Shown here: one piece after another, positions 1 through 64,000 of the stretch
Layout: every line of letters begins with the position of its first letter
Position numbering within the stretch: position 1 is the first letter of the stretch
Program-made: the position numbers and the translations under genes
Notes under the pieces: generated by a model
Seen by the model: only the letters and a program-made list of their open reading frames with translations
What the model was told of the DNA's origin: nothing
Database searches by the model: none
From: Kiritimatiellota bacterium
GTDB lineage: Bacteria > Verrucomicrobiota > Kiritimatiellia > Kiritimatiellales > Tichowtungiaceae
Assembly (NCBI GenBank): GCA_014381785.1
Contig: JACNKZ010000035.1
Location: 41,361 to 105,360 of the forward strand
Direction of reading: 5' to 3'
DNA length: 64,000 nt

Positions 1-1
1 T

Positions 2-157
2 TCTCCAAACCTCGGGAAAAGCTCCTTCAAGCTCTGGCAACCCTATCGTGCTGTGAGCATGACCAACAGTTACGCCTTTATTCCCGGTCCGCGATTTGGT
101 CTGCTTCTTCAGGACTTCTTAGAGGCAATCAGGCAGAATGATTTGGAGGCAGAATAA
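2..157 (+). CDS. C-terminal fragment of a probable ABC transporter substrate-binding protein (BtuF/FecB-like), truncated by the window edge
   Basis: Frame 2 reads SPNLGKSSFKLWQPYRAVSMTNSYAFIPGPRFGLLLQDFLEAIRQNDLEAE*. It lies immediately upstream of ABC ATPase and permease genes. The TAA stop (155-157) overlaps the next ATG (157). Confidence 0.55.
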   Translation, partial: SPNLGKSSFKLWQPYRAVSMTNSYAFIPGPRFGLLLQDFLEAIRQNDLEAE

Positions 158-935
158 TGACTGTAAAGTACACGCAGCCACCCATTCAGCGATCACAGGA
201 CGAATTTAACGAAATAGACTACCAGGTTATGGGGCAGGCTTTTGACCTACATAACAATATGGGTAATTTGTGGGATGAGCGTGAATACCGCCATCAGCTT
301 GCAGTAAAATGCACAGCAATCGGACTGAAAACATTCGAAGAGGTTCACGTTTCTATTTCCCATAACGGGTTCTGTAAAAACTATTTCATCGACCTTTTGA
401 TTAACGGAAATATTTACGAACTAAAAACCGCAACAGCCATTACCAAAAACCATGAAGCACAAACCATCAATTATCTTTTTCTCGCGAACACCCTGCATGG
501 AAAAATCATAAACTTCAGACCAGATTCTCTAAAGTGGCGCTTTGTTTCAACGTCTTTGACAGCAACTGATCGAGCGTTATATTCTCTTCGAACTTCAACA
601 TGGAATCCTCAAACGAAATCTGCGCTGAAAATCCCCACACTACTAAACGATTTACTGGATGCCTGGGGAGCCTGTTTATCTACAAATCTATATAAAGAAG
701 CCCTTTGTCATTTCCTCAACATTCACTTAGAAAATGAACATCAACGATTCACTCCCTTATCGCCCAACACGGTTTTTCATATGTCAGGCCTGAGTGCACA
801 GAAGAACAACCTTAGAAACAACCTGCAGAAATATCTCAATACATCGAGATTCGACGAGCTCCTTTGGATTAATTTTGACCAAACCCAAATTGAACTTTCT
901 TGTCTGCATCATTCTGCCTAAAAATTATTCTGCCT
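131..935 (+). mobile_element. Inverted-repeat-bounded cassette carrying a GxxExxY-like ORF (repeat family A)
   Basis: Left arm 131-158 AGGCAGAATGATTTGGAGGCAGAATAAT; right arm 909-935 TCATTCTGCCTAAAAATTATTCTGCCT. The ORF start and stop codons lie inside the arms. Confidence 0.6.
157..921 (+). CDS. Long GxxExxY-like / PD-(D/E)XK superfamily protein
   Basis: GNLWDEREY resembles the GxxExxY region; FIDLLINGNIYELKT resembles a D-Xn-ELK nuclease motif; homologous over its full length to ORF 4484-5284. Confidence 0.7.
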   Translation: MTVKYTQPPIQRSQDEFNEIDYQVMGQAFDLHNNMGNLWDEREYRHQLAVKCTAIGLKTFEEVHVSISHNGFCKNYFIDLLINGNIYELKTATAITKNHEAQTINYLFLANTLHGKIINFRPDSLKWRFVSTSLTATDRALYSLRTSTWNPQTKSALKIPTLLNDLLDAWGACLSTNLYKEALCHFLNIHLENEHQRFTPLSPNTVFHMSGLSAQKNNLRNNLQKYLNTSRFDELLWINFDQTQIELSCLHHSA

Positions 936-941
936 AATCTC

Positions 942-1715
942 ATGAATTCCGCCATCCAAATAAAAGAGCTAGCATTGAAACTCGGTGGAGTTTCTATTCT
1001 CAAAGGCATTTCATTTTCGGTCGCCGAAGGCGAATACATCTCCATCATCGGCCCGAACGGCGCGGGAAAAACCACCCTGATGCGCTGTCTGCTCGGCATG
1101 TATGTCTATGAAGGAAGCGTCCGGATTGACGGAACAGAATGTTCGCAGGCCAACAGCCGCGAACTGGCGAAAACCATCAGCTATGTTCCGCAAACGCATG
1201 ATATGGAATTTCCGCTAACGGTCCGGGACTTTGTGATGATGGGCCGCTACCCCTACCTTTCTCCGCTCGCTCCGGCGCAGAAAAGAGATATCGAAGCGGT
1301 CGAAAAGGCGTTGGAAGTCACCGGCACCGGATCGTTCCGCGACCGTCTGCTCCGCACGCTCTCCGGCGGTGAACGGCAGAAAGTCTACATCGCCGCCGCC
1401 CTCGCGCAGGAAACGCCGGTGATGCTGCTCGACGAACCCGCCACCTTTCTCGACTGGAAGCATCAGGCGGATGTGATGCAGCTGCTTAAAAAAATCAACC
1501 GGGAGTGCGGCGCCACCATCGTGGCGGTCAATCACGACTTAAACAGCGCCGCGCACTGGTCCGACCGCATCATCGCCCTCAAAGAGGGTGCCGTACTGCT
1601 CGACGGTCCGCCCGCCGAAATCATTCAACCCGGCCCGCTCAAGGAACTCTTCGAAACCACCTTCATCCGCAAAGAAACCCTCGCCCCCATAACGAAAAAG
1701 AATCAGGCAGAATGA
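942..1715 (+). CDS. ABC transporter ATP-binding protein (iron/cobalamin type, FecE/BtuD-like)
   Basis: Walker A GPNGAGKTT, signature LSGGERQ, Walker B VMLLDEP. Start set at MNSAIQIKEL (942) inside ORF 900-1715. Confidence 0.93.
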   Translation: MNSAIQIKELALKLGGVSILKGISFSVAEGEYISIIGPNGAGKTTLMRCLLGMYVYEGSVRIDGTECSQANSRELAKTISYVPQTHDMEFPLTVRDFVMMGRYPYLSPLAPAQKRDIEAVEKALEVTGTGSFRDRLLRTLSGGERQKVYIAAALAQETPVMLLDEPATFLDWKHQADVMQLLKKINRECGATIVAVNHDLNSAAHWSDRIIALKEGAVLLDGPPAEIIQPGPLKELFETTFIRKETLAPITKKNQAE

Positions 1716-1784
1716 TTTATAGGCGGAATAATTATTCCTTTCAGATCGGTAGCAAATCATTCCGCCTAAAAAATGATTCTGCCT
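1705..1784. repeat. Family A miniature hairpin element, no ORF
   Basis: Left arm AGGCAGAATGATTTATAGGCGGAATAAT (1705-1732), right arm AATCATTCCGCCTAAAAAATGATTCTGCCT (1755-1784). Confidence 0.85.
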
Positions 1785-1803
1785 AAAAATCTATGAACAA
1801 AAC

Positions 1804-2751
1804 ATGAAACTAAAATTCACCATTCTGATTCTGCTGGCAACTGGCTCGCTACTGCTTTTTCCAATGATTGGAAGCACGGATGTATTGAATGACCCGGCGG
1901 GCATGGAGATTCTGCTGAAGCTGCGGATTCCGCGCGTGCTGACCGCGTTTCTGGCGGGGATCGCACTGGCGACCAGCGGTATGATTTTTCAGGCGCTGTT
2001 CCGCAATCCGCTTTCGACTCCGTTCACGCTCGGCGTATCAGGCGGCGCGGCGCTCGGTGCGGCGCTGTGGATGCGCTTCGGCACCGCCACCGCACTGGCC
2101 GGTATCGTCGGTACGTCATTGGCCGGCTTCGGCGGCGCACTGATCGCGGTGACACTGGTCTACGGACTGGCGCGCGCCAAGGGCGGCTTTGCCACCGACA
2201 CCCTGCTGCTGGCGGGCGTGGCGGTGAACTTCTTTTTCTCCAGTCTGATTCTGCTCATTCAGTATTTCAGCGATGCCGGCGAAACCTTCCGCATGATCCG
2301 CTGGCTGATGGGCGGTTTTTCGGTGATCGGCTTTTCGACCCCGATCAACTTGAGCCTGTTTGTGCTGGCTGGGCTGGGCGTCTGCGCCCTGCTGACGCGG
2401 GAGATGAACCTGCTTCTGACTGGCGATGAGCTGGCCGCCGCGCGCGGCGTGAATGTAAAGCGCACCCGTAAACTGCTTTTCTTTTCCGCCTCGCTGATGA
2501 CCGGCGCGGCGGTGGCCTTTTGCGGCCCGGTCGGTTTCGTCGGGCTGATGGTGCCGCATATCTGCCGCAAACTGTTCGGAGCGGATCACCGCCGCCTCTT
2601 CCCGGCGGTGATCCTGTTCGGCGGGCTCTTTATGACGGTCTGCGATGGACTCGCCCGCACACTGCTCGCACCAATTGAAATGCCTGCAGGATTGATCACC
2701 GCCCTGCTCGGCGGCCCGTTTTTCATCTGGCTTCTGGTGAAAAAGTCATAA
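1804..2751 (+). CDS. FecCD/BtuC-family ABC transporter permease
   Basis: RIPRVLTAFLAGIALATSGMIFQALFRNPLSTP and GPVGFVGLMVPHICR are family hallmarks. Confidence 0.93.
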   Translation: MKLKFTILILLATGSLLLFPMIGSTDVLNDPAGMEILLKLRIPRVLTAFLAGIALATSGMIFQALFRNPLSTPFTLGVSGGAALGAALWMRFGTATALAGIVGTSLAGFGGALIAVTLVYGLARAKGGFATDTLLLAGVAVNFFFSSLILLIQYFSDAGETFRMIRWLMGGFSVIGFSTPINLSLFVLAGLGVCALLTREMNLLLTGDELAAARGVNVKRTRKLLFFSASLMTGAAVAFCGPVGFVGLMVPHICRKLFGADHRRLFPAVILFGGLFMTVCDGLARTLLAPIEMPAGLITALLGGPFFIWLLVKKS

Positions 2752-2866
2752 AATCAAGACACAACCCCGTGGTGTCTGAATCAGGCTCATTGTCTTGTTA
2801 AGCAGCTTGAATGCGTATATCCTGTAGGCCTATAAAGTTCTTCCAGTACGAACGGAGGGTTTCAAA

Positions 2867-3631
2867 ATGACTCTACGCACGAAACATAAACTGACCTCCC
2901 TGACGACGCGCAATGCGCTCATTCAGGTGGAAATTTCAATTGTGCTTCTGGCGATCATCCCAAGTTTATCGCTTTTCTATCTAGGCACCGTTGTTGATAA
3001 AAACAGCCCCTATTTTTCGGTGGGCACCCTGCTCTTAATCGGCCTGTTAACTGCGGCCGTGGCAGCCCCGGGCTTCGTGATTTTACGAAAATATCCGAAA
3101 AATATTATGAAGCTTCGCTACTACATCACCGATATTTCAAAGGGAACCCTGCCGGATAAAATCGAACTGGAGGATGCTCAGACCTCGGATGATCTCCAAT
3201 ACATTGAAAACCACTTTAACCATGTTCTGGAAAAAATGAAGCAACGCATTGCGTCAGCAGAAAAACAATTTGAAACGGAGCGCACCCTGAGAGAAACAGT
3301 TGAGCAGCAACAGGAAACTCTGATAGAAGCCGAGCGACACCGCACGATGGTCCAGACAATTGGAGCCGCCTGCCACCATATCGGCCAACCCGCCGCCGTA
3401 CTGCAGCTCCGGATGGATCTTTTACAAAACCTTGCATCGAATGAACAGGAACGCGAGGAAATCGAAGGGTGCATCAAGTCCGTAACGCAGATCACAGATA
3501 TTCTGCAACAACTGCAACGGGTTAGTGAATTTAGAACCGTCCCCTATATTCACACTGAAAACACTCCCGGTGATGAAATTCTCGCCTTCGACTCGAATGA
3601 CCCGATCGAGAAACCAACGGAGCCGAGTTAA
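2867..3631 (+). CDS. Membrane protein with a DHp-like histidine kinase dimerisation segment but no HATPase domain
   Basis: Two N-terminal TM segments, HAMP-like linker, coiled coil and IGAACHHIGQPAAVLQLRMDLL; the ORF ends before any ATPase domain. Confidence 0.5.
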   Translation: MTLRTKHKLTSLTTRNALIQVEISIVLLAIIPSLSLFYLGTVVDKNSPYFSVGTLLLIGLLTAAVAAPGFVILRKYPKNIMKLRYYITDISKGTLPDKIELEDAQTSDDLQYIENHFNHVLEKMKQRIASAEKQFETERTLRETVEQQQETLIEAERHRTMVQTIGAACHHIGQPAAVLQLRMDLLQNLASNEQEREEIEGCIKSVTQITDILQQLQRVSEFRTVPYIHTENTPGDEILAFDSNDPIEKPTEPS

Positions 3632-3699
3632 CGATACGCGCTGGTCCGGCCCGATCCGTTTTTCCAATGGCGCGTCTCGCACCACAGGCGGTTGGAAAA

Positions 3700-4458
3700 T
3701 CAGTTGAGCGCCGCGATCCGCGCAAGGCCTTTGAGCGTCAGGTGCGGATCAACCGGCACCGGATTACCCAATCCTCCTGCCCGCAATGTCTGCGACATAG
3801 TCGTTGCAGGCGGGTGGAAAACCCATTCGGCGAAGCCGCCGGTGGCGCAAACCTTCATCTCCGCTCCCAGCTCCTGTTCAAGCTGCGCGAGTATTTCTTT
3901 CACCATGCCCAGATAACCAAAGTGCGCCCCGATCTGCATCGCTTCGGCCGTGCTTTTCCCGATCACCGCAGTGGTCTGAGCCGGTTTGATATGCGGCAGT
4001 AATGCAGTTTTTTCAGCCAGATAATCGAACATGAGCGGCAGGCCGGGGCAAATAATACCGCCGACATAGCCTTCGTCCTTTTTGACAATGTCGAAGGTCA
4101 GCGCGGTGCCGAAATCGCAAACCACCACCGGCGCGCCGCAGGTCGCAGCCGCTTCACAGGCATTGGCCAGCCGATCCGCACCAATCATTTCAGGGTTCGG
4201 ATACGTGATGGGAATACCCAGATCGGACTCATGACTTACCCATAGGATTTCATGAACCCCCAGTTCGTTCAGGAAAGTCTCCCACTGTTTATTCACTGGC
4301 GGCTTAACCGAGGCAATCACCGCCCGTTGCGGCATGATTTCGAGCTGAACGGCCGGGCAATCAGACGCTGTGCGTTGAACCGAACTCAACCCGTTCGCGC
4401 CCGCCAGTGCCAGCGACGTGCTCGTATTCCCGATATCGATGACCAATGTAAATTTCAT
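3700..4458 (-). CDS. coaX: Type III pantothenate kinase
   Basis: MKFTLVIDIGNTSTSLAL, VVCDFGTALTFDIV, GGIICPGL. Confidence 0.92.
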   Translation of the reverse strand: MKFTLVIDIGNTSTSLALAGANGLSSVQRTASDCPAVQLEIMPQRAVIASVKPPVNKQWETFLNELGVHEILWVSHESDLGIPITYPNPEMIGADRLANACEAAATCGAPVVVCDFGTALTFDIVKKDEGYVGGIICPGLPLMFDYLAEKTALLPHIKPAQTTAVIGKSTAEAMQIGAHFGYLGMVKEILAQLEQELGAEMKVCATGGFAEWVFHPPATTMSQTLRAGGLGNPVPVDPHLTLKGLARIAALN

Positions 4459-4459
4459 T

Positions 4460-5342
4460 TTAACAGGATGATGGATAACAGGATTATTTTTTTAGAGTGA
4501 TCAATTGAACTGTCGCCCGATTAAAATTTATCCATTGAATTTGCTTGAGACTCGTATGTTCAAATATTTTCAAGAGTTGTTTTTTATAAGATTCAAAATG
4601 TCGAATGGTTGATGATATGTGCAAGCAGGTCTCTTCATCCAGACAACATAATCTCTGATGCCCGACAAGGTAGTTGTTAACAAAAATATTTACAGGTTGC
4701 ATCAAGACATCATCACCGCCAAGAAAATGACAAACCGCTTCCCGATAAAGGTTCACGTCCAAATATACGCCCCAATCTACTAACAAATTTTGAACTATTT
4801 CCCTGATAAATTTACCAGAGGGAATCTCTGTTGACCACGTTGCGTCATCGACTTCATAACTCATCCGGTTTATTGCATTCAAGGTTGTCGTTACAAACCG
4901 GTACTGAACTGATGGAGAAGAAAAATTTATTAGTTTGCCAAACTGTAAATTGCTCAACAGCAAGTAATTTAACAATTGCGACTCGTGCTGTCCGTTTAAC
5001 GTTTCAACGGCTTTCAACTCACAGATCGATCCGCAATTCATCAACGCATCGAGATAGTACGATTTTTTAAATGACTCAAAAGAAACAACGATTTCACTTT
5101 CTGAACGAACAATTAATCCACTATCCGTACAACGTCGCAACAGCTCTATCTGATACACGTGCTCGTTATAAAGCCGTCCCAGTTCATTCTGGATGGAAAA
5201 TGAATGCTTCATTACTAGATGATCGATCTCATAAAACTGAGATCTCGACATCGGAACAACATCGAATTTGCAGAGAATCGGCATGAGACTTCTTTAATTT
5301 CGTGTAGAATCAAAAATCATCTTGTTGTCCATCATCCTGTAA
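4460..5342 (-). mobile_element. Inverted-repeat-bounded cassette carrying the second GxxExxY-like ORF (repeat family B)
   Basis: Left arm 4460-4491 TTAACAGGATGATGGATAACAGGATTATTTTT; right arm 5312-5342 AAAAATCATCTTGTTGTCCATCATCCTGTAA. It fills the coaX-nadC intergenic region. Confidence 0.6.
4484..5284 (-). CDS. Long GxxExxY-like / PD-(D/E)XK superfamily protein
   Basis: GRLYNEHVY and YLDALMNCGSICELKAVE; homologous to ORF 157-921, including the C-terminal NLYREAVCHFL and WINF blocks. Confidence 0.7.
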   Translation of the reverse strand: MPILCKFDVVPMSRSQFYEIDHLVMKHSFSIQNELGRLYNEHVYQIELLRRCTDSGLIVRSESEIVVSFESFKKSYYLDALMNCGSICELKAVETLNGQHESQLLNYLLLSNLQFGKLINFSSPSVQYRFVTTTLNAINRMSYEVDDATWSTEIPSGKFIREIVQNLLVDWGVYLDVNLYREAVCHFLGGDDVLMQPVNIFVNNYLVGHQRLCCLDEETCLHISSTIRHFESYKKQLLKIFEHTSLKQIQWINFNRATVQLITLKK

Positions 5343-5349
5343 ATATTTA

Positions 5350-6216
5350 TTATGCCCAATCAAGCGCGAGGTCGGCCGCCGGAGCCGAATGGGTCAGCGC
5401 GCCAACCGAAACGGCATTCACACCCGTTTTGGCGATTTCACGGATGGTATCGAGATTCACGCCGCCGGACGCTTCGGTTTTGCATATGCCTTCGCACAGT
5501 TTGACGCAGTCACGCAAAACAATCGGCGGCATGTTGTCGAGCAGCACCCAGTCCGGCTTGGCAGGCAGAACTTCCTGCAGCTGTTCAATGGTGTCGACCT
5601 CCACTTCAACCAGACGATCCGGAAAACGGTCGCGCACAGCCTGAACCGCTCCGCTGATGCCGCTGTCGTGGTTTTCGGCCCAGTACGCCAGATGGTTGTC
5701 TTTCAGCATGGCCATGTCGTAGAGACCCATGCGGTGATTGTTTCCGCCGCCGCACAATACAGAATATTTTTCGAACGCACGCAACGTCGGCGTGGTTTTG
5801 CGGGTATCGAGCAGTTTTACATCCGGATTGTTGGCTTCTTCAACATACTGCCGGGTCAGCGTGGCGACACCGCTCATGCGTTGGATAAAGTTGAGCGCGG
5901 TGCGCTCGCCGACCAGAATGCTGCGGGCCGAGCCCGAAAGGGTCAGTACGACATCGCCGTGCTCCATGGGGCTTCCATCCGTCATTCCCTCTTCAATTTT
6001 GAGTGACGGATCAACCTGACGGAACACTTCGGCCGCGACGCTTGCGCCAGCCAGCACGCCGGTCTGACGCGCCACGAGGTGCGCGGTGGCCGGCCGGCCT
6101 TCCGGCACGAGTGCGTCGGCGGTTACATCGACGGCTTGCGGCCCAAGGTCTTCAGCCAGCGATTCGCAAATGCGTTTTTTTACATCCGGATTGGAAAGAA
6201 GGTCAGGAAGGTTCAT
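5350..6216 (-). CDS. nadC: Nicotinate-nucleotide pyrophosphorylase (carboxylating)
   Basis: RTALNFIQRMSGVATLTRQYV, LDTRKTTPTLRAFEKYSVLCGGGNNHRMGLYDMAMLKDNH. Confidence 0.96.
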   Translation of the reverse strand: MNLPDLLSNPDVKKRICESLAEDLGPQAVDVTADALVPEGRPATAHLVARQTGVLAGASVAAEVFRQVDPSLKIEEGMTDGSPMEHGDVVLTLSGSARSILVGERTALNFIQRMSGVATLTRQYVEEANNPDVKLLDTRKTTPTLRAFEKYSVLCGGGNNHRMGLYDMAMLKDNHLAYWAENHDSGISGAVQAVRDRFPDRLVEVEVDTIEQLQEVLPAKPDWVLLDNMPPIVLRDCVKLCEGICKTEASGGVNLDTIREIAKTGVNAVSVGALTHSAPAADLALDWA

Positions 6217-10995: not shown

Positions 10996-11457
10996 CCGCT
11001 AATACACGCGAATAGACGCGAATAGAATCCCCTCCTGCGGAGGGCTGGCCAACGGTCGGGGTGGGTTTCCCAATGGCGCGTCTCGCGCCACAGGCGGTTG
11101 GAAGATCTGTAGCGGCGGCCACTGGGCGCAGATTCTAATATCCCTACTAAAGGTCAGGCAGAATAATTTTTACGGGGCTGGGGTCAGCCCGTGATTTGAC
11201 GCTTCGCTGCCGTCCCGCCATAGTCGGGCCAGCCCAGCTCGCCGTCGGCTCGGTTGTAGCATTTTTTTAAATAATTGGCTGATACGCTTTAGACTTTCAC
11301 AACCCGCCAGGTCTTGAGGCCGAGAGCCATTGCAGCATATTTTGCGGTGTTTTTGTTTCCGAACAGGGTGACTCTTTTCTGGTCGAGCCGGTTGACTCAT
11401 TCGGTCTTTAACTTGGATTAGGACATTCCAGTAATCCAAGTTGGCCGTTATTTTGGA

Positions 11458-23220: not shown

Positions 23221-23289
23221 AGGCAGAATGATTTTAAGACAGAATAATTTTTACAAGCAACTGCCACTGAACAGTTAATCATTCTGCCT
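23221..23289. repeat. Family A miniature hairpin element
   Basis: AGGCAGAATGATTTTAAGACAGAATAATTTTT ... AATCATTCTGCCT. Confidence 0.8.
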
Positions 23290-49732: not shown

Positions 49733-49836
49733 CGTTTGAAAGAAGCCTCGTGATGTGTGCTTTCGAAGAGACGACGAGCGTCATCAACGCAGGCTCGCTT
49801 GACGGGTTCGATTTTTATTTCATGCTCATCTTTTTT

Positions 49837-49897
49837 GACAGGATTACAGGATGAACAGGATTTTAATTTCCCATCCAGTCGATCCTGTAATCCTGTC
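49837..49897. repeat. Family B miniature hairpin
   Basis: GACAGGATTACAGGATGAACAGGATTTT ... GATCCTGTAATCCTGTC. Confidence 0.8.
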
Positions 49898-50201
49898 TGA
49901 AATTCTTCCTGTATGGTTTCTAGGGGTGAGCTGATTTATGTTTTTTATGCAATCAAACAGTATATAAGTGGAAAACGTTCCACATATGACCCTAAACCGG
50001 GGTCATGATACATAGGCTTCCAACCATTGGAAAAAGAAATGTATATTTTTCCAATGCTTGGAAAATGATCTCACACGAAGGCACAGAGCCACCAAGAAAG
50101 TTTCAAGTGTTCGCAATCCGCCTCTTCCCATCTGTATTACTATCCGTCAACTTCTCATTTTTCATGCACGTTTTTGCAGGAGCTCTATCCTTTTGAAGAT
50201 C

Positions 50202-50284
50202 AGGCAGAATAATTTTTGGGCAGAATGATGGATGATAGAAACAAAGCTAGGCCTGAATCATTCTGCCTCAAAATCATTCTGCCT
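50202..50284. repeat. Family A miniature hairpin element
   Basis: AGGCAGAATAATTTTTGGGCAGAATGAT (50202-50229) versus AATCATTCTGCCTCAAAATCATTCTGCCT (50256-50284). Confidence 0.85.
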
Positions 50285-60048: not shown

Positions 60049-60129
60049 AGGCAGAATGATTTTTAGGCAGAATAATTTCTCTTTCTGGATCAATGGCAAC
60101 CATCATTCTGCCTACAAATCATTCTACCT
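60049..60129. repeat. Family A miniature hairpin element
   Basis: AGGCAGAATGATTTTTAGGCAGAATAATTT versus CATCATTCTGCCTACAAATCATTCTACCT. Confidence 0.85.
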
Positions 60130-63903: not shown

Positions 63904-64000
63904 TACGGTAGTTCACTCAGGGAATTTTTACCGCGAGAGAACGCAAGGAACGCAAAGGAACAGGCAAAAATGCTACAAATCACGGGCTGACCCCTCTTCC

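Follow-up and report, generated by a model that had tools for sequence, protein, structure and literature searches.

The locus analyzed here raises the question of why a small nuclease-like gene in an ABC-transporter operon should begin in one arm of an inverted repeat and end in the other, and whether gene and repeat move as one unit. The window, that is the whole stretch of 64,000 nucleotides from a Kiritimatiellota bacterium, opens with the following features around this gene, which together with its arms is called cassette A.

2..157, + strand: BtuF-like periplasmic binding protein gene of the ABC operon, C-terminal part (empty-site alignment, homologue match)
131..158, + strand: left arm of cassette A, AGGCAGAATGATTTGGAGGCAGAATAAT, two tandem motifs (inverted-repeat detection)
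157..921, + strand: cassette A ORF, 254 aa, GxxExxY/PDDEXK_3 N-terminal half and degenerate C-terminal half (ORF call, profiles)
908..935, - strand: right arm of cassette A, encoding the final codons and stop of the ORF (inverted-repeat detection)
942..1715, + strand: ABC transporter ATPase, BtuD/FecE-like (profile match)
1804..2751, + strand: FecCD/BtuC-family permease (profile match)

The mechanical ORF call and the arm coordinates bear out the layout described in the earlier note. The ORF runs from arm to arm of the inverted repeat, each arm consists of two tandem copies of AGGCAGAATNAT (131-158 and 908-935), and the left and right arms pair. The stop codon TAA of the BtuF-like gene (155-157) lies inside the left arm and overlaps the ATG of cassette A (157-159), and the right arm supplies the last codons, CAT CAT TCT GCC TAA, ending at 921. 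With the translation of the BtuF-like upstream gene as reference, the upstream ORF at other loci of this junction (site A) matched to 41-56%. The window contains 8 copies of the AGGCAGAATNAT double motif, compared with 0.00 expected from its shuffles. Cassette A is located between ABC-transporter genes and not within a 23S rRNA gene, and an Rfam search of window positions 1-6000 gave no match.

Profile searches also upheld the proposed GxxExxY/PD-(D/E)XK-like identity of the ORF. The protein matched PF13366 (PDDEXK_3; E=5e-20, 72.5 bits at a curated cut-off of 22) and TIGR04256 (GxxExxY; E=9e-20, 71.2 bits at a cut-off of 35), with PDDEXK_3 as the only domain over cut-off. By sequence it is a member of the TIGR04256 GxxExxY/PDDEXK_3 family with the catalytic motif present, and it represents a long type (about 255-285 aa) that differs from the family in that the domain is present a second time in degenerate form. 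The PD-(D/E)XK-type catalytic residues E41, D79, E88 and K90 of the N-terminal half are invariant in 38 out of 38 long-type proteins. Over its full length, the C-terminal half can be aligned with short GxxExxY proteins (hhalign E=4e-6), and its catalytic ExK residues are gone. Each chain is therefore predicted to consist of one live and one dead nuclease-type domain. For GxxExxY gene pairs where dS could be estimated, dN was about 0.06-0.15 of dS; judged by these ratios, strong purifying selection shows that the GxxExxY protein is functional.

The AlphaFold model of the long-type protein is poor (mean pLDDT 60), although the order of its elements nonetheless repeats twice. A PDB fold search with this predicted structure returned nothing at E<=0.001, and a PDB sequence search returned TM0957 alone (E=0.056). 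PADLOC models of anti-phage defence systems matched neither long-type protein of the window, and one short GxxExxY protein gave weak PDC-M36A matches only. In the cassette A protein, profile searches detected no recombinase of a known class (DDE, serine, tyrosine) and no match to the four-helix-bundle profile TIGR02436. Elsewhere in the same genome (L008/L012, contig C17), a 265-aa protein with two recognizable GxxExxY domains and CAACGAAT arms falls outside the long-type alignment. Judging by this protein, the tandem duplication of the GxxExxY domain may have had more than one origin.

The earlier note regarded gene and repeat as a unit, and named two observations that would speak against this: orthologous loci of relatives that carry the ORF but no arms, and a lack of arms around most other GxxExxY genes. 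Neither was borne out, and in three sets of genes most had arms. In a phylum-wide sample of one gene per genome, picked on protein score only, 18 of 29 GxxExxY genes had inverted arms compared with 1 of 76 control ORFs (Fisher p=7e-12), and most of the genes under the threshold carry shorter arms of like style. GxxExxY was carried by 72 of 146 genomes in the phylum-wide draw. Of 42 long-type genes from this genome and from relatives, 35 had arms at a Smith-Waterman score >=32. Below this threshold were L063 and L071, whose flanks are cut by contig ends, and L060, L065 and L130, which score 29-30 with the same motif; the only long-type relatives with complete flanks and without clear arms were L061 and the divergent 448-aa L070. 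Finally, arms were present in 34 of 48 further, mostly short, GxxExxY genes of nearer relatives versus 3 of 148 control ORFs of the same stretches. Of the armed controls, two have another repeat in common and one catches a GxxExxY arm. As a side observation, a control ORF in L154 (229-971) lies within inverted GGTCGAACGTCGAAGGTCGAA arms, probably representing an additional arm family that surrounds another kind of gene.

The arm motifs of GxxExxY genes include ACAGAGGNCACAGAG, CGCAAAG, ACAGGAT, CACGAA and AGGCAGAAT. The four motif copies of a cassette are alike, including those that do not pair in the stem, and they change together between clades. The arms contain stop codons and often a start codon too. 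Cassettes and their neighbors share the same strand in 134 of 160 pairs versus 94 of 134 in the baseline, as expected if expression depends on translational coupling. Beyond the phylum, where the examples are named plasmid matches, sequence comparison only indicates the arm trait because the outcome is mixed. A GxxExxY gene with clear CGCGAAG arms is inserted at the fabD/fabG junction, again within an operon, on a Sphingomonas parapaucimobilis plasmid (L182), a Treponema gene has an 11-nt inverted pair, and the GxxExxY genes of Fusobacteria and Gemmatirosa gave no significant inverted pair.

A second cassette of the long type is found in the window between a CoaX-like gene (3700-4458) and a NadC-like gene (5350-6216).

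4457..4491, no strand assigned: arm of cassette B on the CoaX side, AACAGGATGATGGATAACAGGATTAT family (inverted pair I7, 86%)
4484..5284, - strand: cassette B ORF, 266 aa, long-type GxxExxY (ORF call, profiles, empty sites)
5312..5346, no strand assigned: arm of cassette B on the NadC side (inverted-repeat detection)

Its arms differ in sequence from those of cassette A. The whole genome (G000; 2.2 Mb, 88 contigs) contains 12 GxxExxY matches, and most of these genes are flanked by inverted arrays of 2-4 tandem copies of a gene-specific short motif. It also contains 13 matches to the four-helix-bundle profile TIGR02436, and at least 6 of these 13 genes lie between inverted arms of 2-4 tandem short motifs, which lends support to the link to the four-helix-bundle proteins of 23S rRNA intervening sequences (IVS) drawn in the earlier note. 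The armed genes of this S23/IVS family include L031, L034, L035, L036, L037 and L039. The arms of the TIGR02436 genes in this genome, among them GGGATGCGGGAT, GCGCATAGAGC and CTGGGTTCTGGG, differ from the cassette A arms.

The arm motifs were also found as solo hairpins that contain no gene. The window carries at least four with arms of the cassette A family, and one of another arm family.

1705..1784, no strand assigned: cassette A arm family, at the ATPase/permease junction (absent in G009, G013, G004 and G007)
23221..23288, no strand assigned: cassette A arm family, right side a single motif (motif search)
49832..49902, no strand assigned: ACAGGAT arm family (inverted-repeat detection)
50202..50284, no strand assigned: cassette A arm family (motif search)
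60049..60129, no strand assigned: cassette A arm family (about 190 nt with the hairpin missing at the colinear site of G009)

The TGA of the ATPase gene (1713-1715) falls within the first of these hairpins. In the 2.2 Mb genome the double motif occurs 18 times, compared with 0 for the reversed pattern. It was present in 31 out of 56 relatives, with up to 63 copies per genome, and the reversed control was zero in every genome listed. Solo hairpins are more numerous in genomes with a clade-A gene (Mann-Whitney p=1.7e-4). No clade-A gene was detected in G026 (53 double motifs) and G033 (32), both of which are incomplete draft assemblies. ACAGGAT arms flank the short GxxExxY genes L003 and L005; three tandem copies of ACAGGAT gave 23 matches in this genome versus 0 for the control, and two of the 23 flank L003. 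Solo hairpins are dispersed, also outside operon junctions. An origin as remnants of cassette deletion is unlikely, since the loops cluster at 16-29 nt (25 of 26) and those read contain no recognizable ORF remnant.

The variable position N of the motif is not matched in arms that pair in a stem (13 G-U-forming versus 19 A-C-forming combinations). Precise stem pairing therefore does not seem to be demanded, and the pairing test provided no support for strict pairing. The N base agrees between inner-left and outer-right copies in a fraction of 0.69 versus 0.39 expected (36 inverted doublets from the window and the loci), with p about 0.001 in one of 7 tests on related sequences. Two groups of solo hairpins (L015, L016, L019 and L026; L022, L025, L028 and L030) share similar loops or outer flanks, one of them with GGTTCACCRTGAA repeats, and some copies have therefore spread as a larger composite unit.

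Other repeats are present as well. The genome has eight Y1_Tnp-domain matches, whose flanks carry other repeats and not the cassette A motif. Repeats of the GGGGTCAGCCCG type at window 11180-11211 and 63963-63994 and in L137 and L139 resemble those beside the Y1_Tnp (RAYT-like) genes and are likely REP elements of that system. A short dispersed palindrome, TTTTTCCAAnnnnTTGGAAAA, is represented by about 12 copies (window 7317, 7597, 13308, 21089, 39630, 50046, 50506, 58351 and others).

The empty sites that the earlier note proposed to look for in relatives were found for both cassettes and for the solo hairpin of the operon. In the nearest relative, G009 (complete genome, NadC 89% identical), the operon is colinear and lacks all three. 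Its sequence joins window position 108 to 1029 at cassette A (about 111 nt between), 1687 to 1800 at the solo hairpin (about 9 nt), and 4443 to 5351 at cassette B (about 18 nt). The same-genus outgroups G013, G004 and G007 are likewise empty at all three sites, and in G005 site B is empty. With the nearest relative and successive outgroups empty, the elements were therefore gained in our genome. A candidate target-site duplication, AATC, was seen at site A only; the other cassettes have no consistent duplication. At the NadC/CoaX junction of G006 (L119, 2700-2997), a decayed cassette B remnant comprises an arm and the first 24 codons, followed by unrelated sequence. The sister of cassette B, L050, is located at another junction, and the NadC/CoaX junction of its genome has no arm. 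Hence, gain, decay and relocation all occur.

Certain junctions are occupied repeatedly. Cassettes were found at the BtuF/BtuD junction (site A) in six genomes, and further at BtuD/BtuC, NadC/CoaX, downstream of BtuC, between ExbB/TolQ-like and ExbD-like genes (assigned by eye from the sequence), and before ApbE (assigned by Pfam). Protein clade, arm motif and junction agree with one another. In the cassette tree, G000 of bacterial family f1 is the sister of G037 of bacterial family f2 (support 100/99) and nested among f2 cassettes, whereas the BtuD tree splits f1 from f2 (100/100) and pairs G000 with G009. The two cassette proteins are 59% identical, compared with 49% for BtuD of the same two genomes. 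This conflict between the trees shows that cassette A arrived horizontally at the orthologous BtuF/BtuD junction. Horizontal occupation of the same position in different lineages, as in homing, is thus seen at site A. The case is weaker for sites B, E, H and M, and vertical inheritance is possible at E and M, where the occupied junctions all come from a single family. Movement of cassette A is well supported. The earlier note had left it at a self-contained cassette that was either mobile or domesticated: mobility is supported by the gain, the transfer to the same junction and the dispersed solo copies, and purifying selection indicates that the protein is functional too.

On balance, cassette A appears to be a mobile element that resembles both REPIN/RAYT systems and homing genes, with a PD-(D/E)XK-type protein acting on its own arms. 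We infer that the GxxExxY protein is the mobilizing enzyme. It would recognize the motifs of the arms in one of three forms (duplex, extruded single-strand hairpin or RNA) and cut or nick there. Such recognition is suggested because the motif copies, also the non-pairing ones, are alike and change together between clades, and because the solo hairpins of a genome share the resident motif. The cassette would then copy itself into a matching empty junction like a homing gene, and arm-only hairpins would be mobilized in trans, in the way that RAYTs act on REPINs. The combination of an intact and a degenerate nuclease domain suggests a built-in pseudo-dimer that may cut or nick asymmetrically. Stop and start codons in the arms would allow the cassette to sit in translationally coupled junctions at little cost to the host operon. 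A wider and more tentative reading is that GxxExxY proteins may be the mobilizing nucleases of an unnamed element class, phylum-wide and probably beyond. Each such element would consist of a PD-(D/E)XK-type gene flanked by inverted arrays of a motif of 7-16 nt, would home to fixed operon junctions and would spawn arm-only hairpins. If true, many dispersed short repeats of the ACAGAGGNCACAGAG, ACAGGAT, CGCAAAG and AGGCAGAAT types would be explained, and the similarly armed four-helix-bundle (S23/IVS) genes would form a system in parallel.

Other explanations have to be weighed against this. The cassettes might act at the RNA level in the manner of 23S IVS, the arms pairing in the operon mRNA, the ORF forming an excisable or insulated loop, the protein acting on the RNA hairpin, and another agent spreading the DNA. 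Inverted arms around an ORF are indeed the architecture of 23S IVS (PMC4990558), the cassettes tend to be co-directional in operons, and genes of the IVS protein family are similarly armed in this genome. However, gene-less hairpins also lie outside operon junctions, pairing is not maintained at the variable motif position, and transfer to the same junction requires a step at the DNA level; we regard this explanation as unlikely. An inherited operon gene with lineage-specific losses would agree with purifying selection, with several orthologous junctions being filled in many genomes, with site-B cassettes about as divergent as the host genes, and with the loss documented by the G006 remnant. 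It is already disfavored and barely tenable in view of the conflicting trees and the excess of similarity found at site A, the empty nearest relative and successive outgroups, and sister cassettes at different junctions (L050 and L010).

Two further explanations accept movement and assign it differently. A conventional homing endonuclease could cut the empty BtuF/BtuD-type junction and leave the copying of the cassette to host repair, with the arms merely insulating transcription and translation. The reuse of the same junctions across lineages and the horizontal transfer at site A fit this scheme, and PD-(D/E)XK-type homing endonucleases are known (I-Ssp6803I). It leaves unexplained, though, that solo hairpins with the same arms are dispersed and that all four motif copies change jointly between clades, and the location of L050, a clade-B cassette, at another junction in a genome with an arm-free NadC/CoaX site also argues against it, which makes it fairly improbable. 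Alternatively, an unrelated transposase of the RAYT/Y1 or IS kind could move arms and hairpins, the GxxExxY gene being a passenger caught between two hairpins. Such a source could be sought in the eight Y1_Tnp-domain matches, and G026 and G033 carry many solo hairpins without a detected clade-A gene. But the RAYT flanks have repeats other than the cassette A motif, family after family only GxxExxY genes (and, with other motifs, four-helix-bundle genes) occur between such arms, and the GxxExxY active site is strictly conserved. A passenger role is thus quite improbable, and a GxxExxY protein acting on its own arms is the reading that we retain.

The combination of a gene, inverted arms and gene-less hairpins apparently constitutes a widespread and undescribed kind of mobile DNA. 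In the open-access journal literature covered, no link of GxxExxY to repeats was found. The name occurs in two papers, one of which does not mention repeats, the other being, to judge by its title, on the genome of a Chrysochromulina parva virus. Six representative arm strings had no occurrence in the same literature. GxxExxY is a common named family without a known role, and its own flanking repeats provide a testable function as a mobile-element enzyme. Conversely, the tie between arms and GxxExxY gives an origin to short repeats of unexplained source. Should the protein prove to move the hairpins, populations like those of REPINs would have arisen with a second, unrelated enzyme, and the needs of the hairpin could then be separated from those of Y1 chemistry. 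A further possible use is gene insertion, for which an element that is site-specific and leaves coupled operon junctions intact on entry may be a helpful tool.

Among known systems, insertion sequences and MITEs share terminal inverted repeats, an enzyme gene and non-autonomous arm-only derivatives with the cassettes. In contrast to these, the cassettes have no DDE, serine or tyrosine recombinase and no consistent target-site duplication, their arms repeat a motif of 7-16 nt in tandem, and the same junction is filled across families. The intervening sequences of 23S rRNA genes, which carry S23/four-helix-bundle ORFs (PMC4990558) and are excised by RNase III, resemble them in architecture, with a small ORF placed inside inverted repeats able to form a single long stem. 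They differ in that the cassettes reside in protein-coding operons and encode another protein family, that element-free host copies are plentiful, and that arm-only copies are dispersed. Homing endonuclease genes (see the review PMC3943268) are similar as small nuclease genes with an intact active site that arrive horizontally at the same spot of conserved host genes and pass through cycles of gain, decay and loss, whereas the cassettes occupy intercistronic junctions rather than introns or inteins and possess inverted tandem-motif arms, which are also dispersed as hairpins. In REPIN-RAYT systems, REP doublets form hairpins and are associated with REP-associated tyrosine transposases (PMC3116915). 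These systems share with ours the inverted motif doublets with a short spacer, intergenic dispersal in many copies per genome, and a gene, usually in single copy, that has the same motif in its flanks; the motif is specific to the lineage of that gene. Unlike them, the cassettes carry a PD-(D/E)XK-type GxxExxY gene in place of the Y1/HUH transposase that defines REPIN-RAYT systems, their motif is not a GTAG/CGTC-tagged REP palindrome, and the cassette gene itself moves between lineages at fixed junctions.
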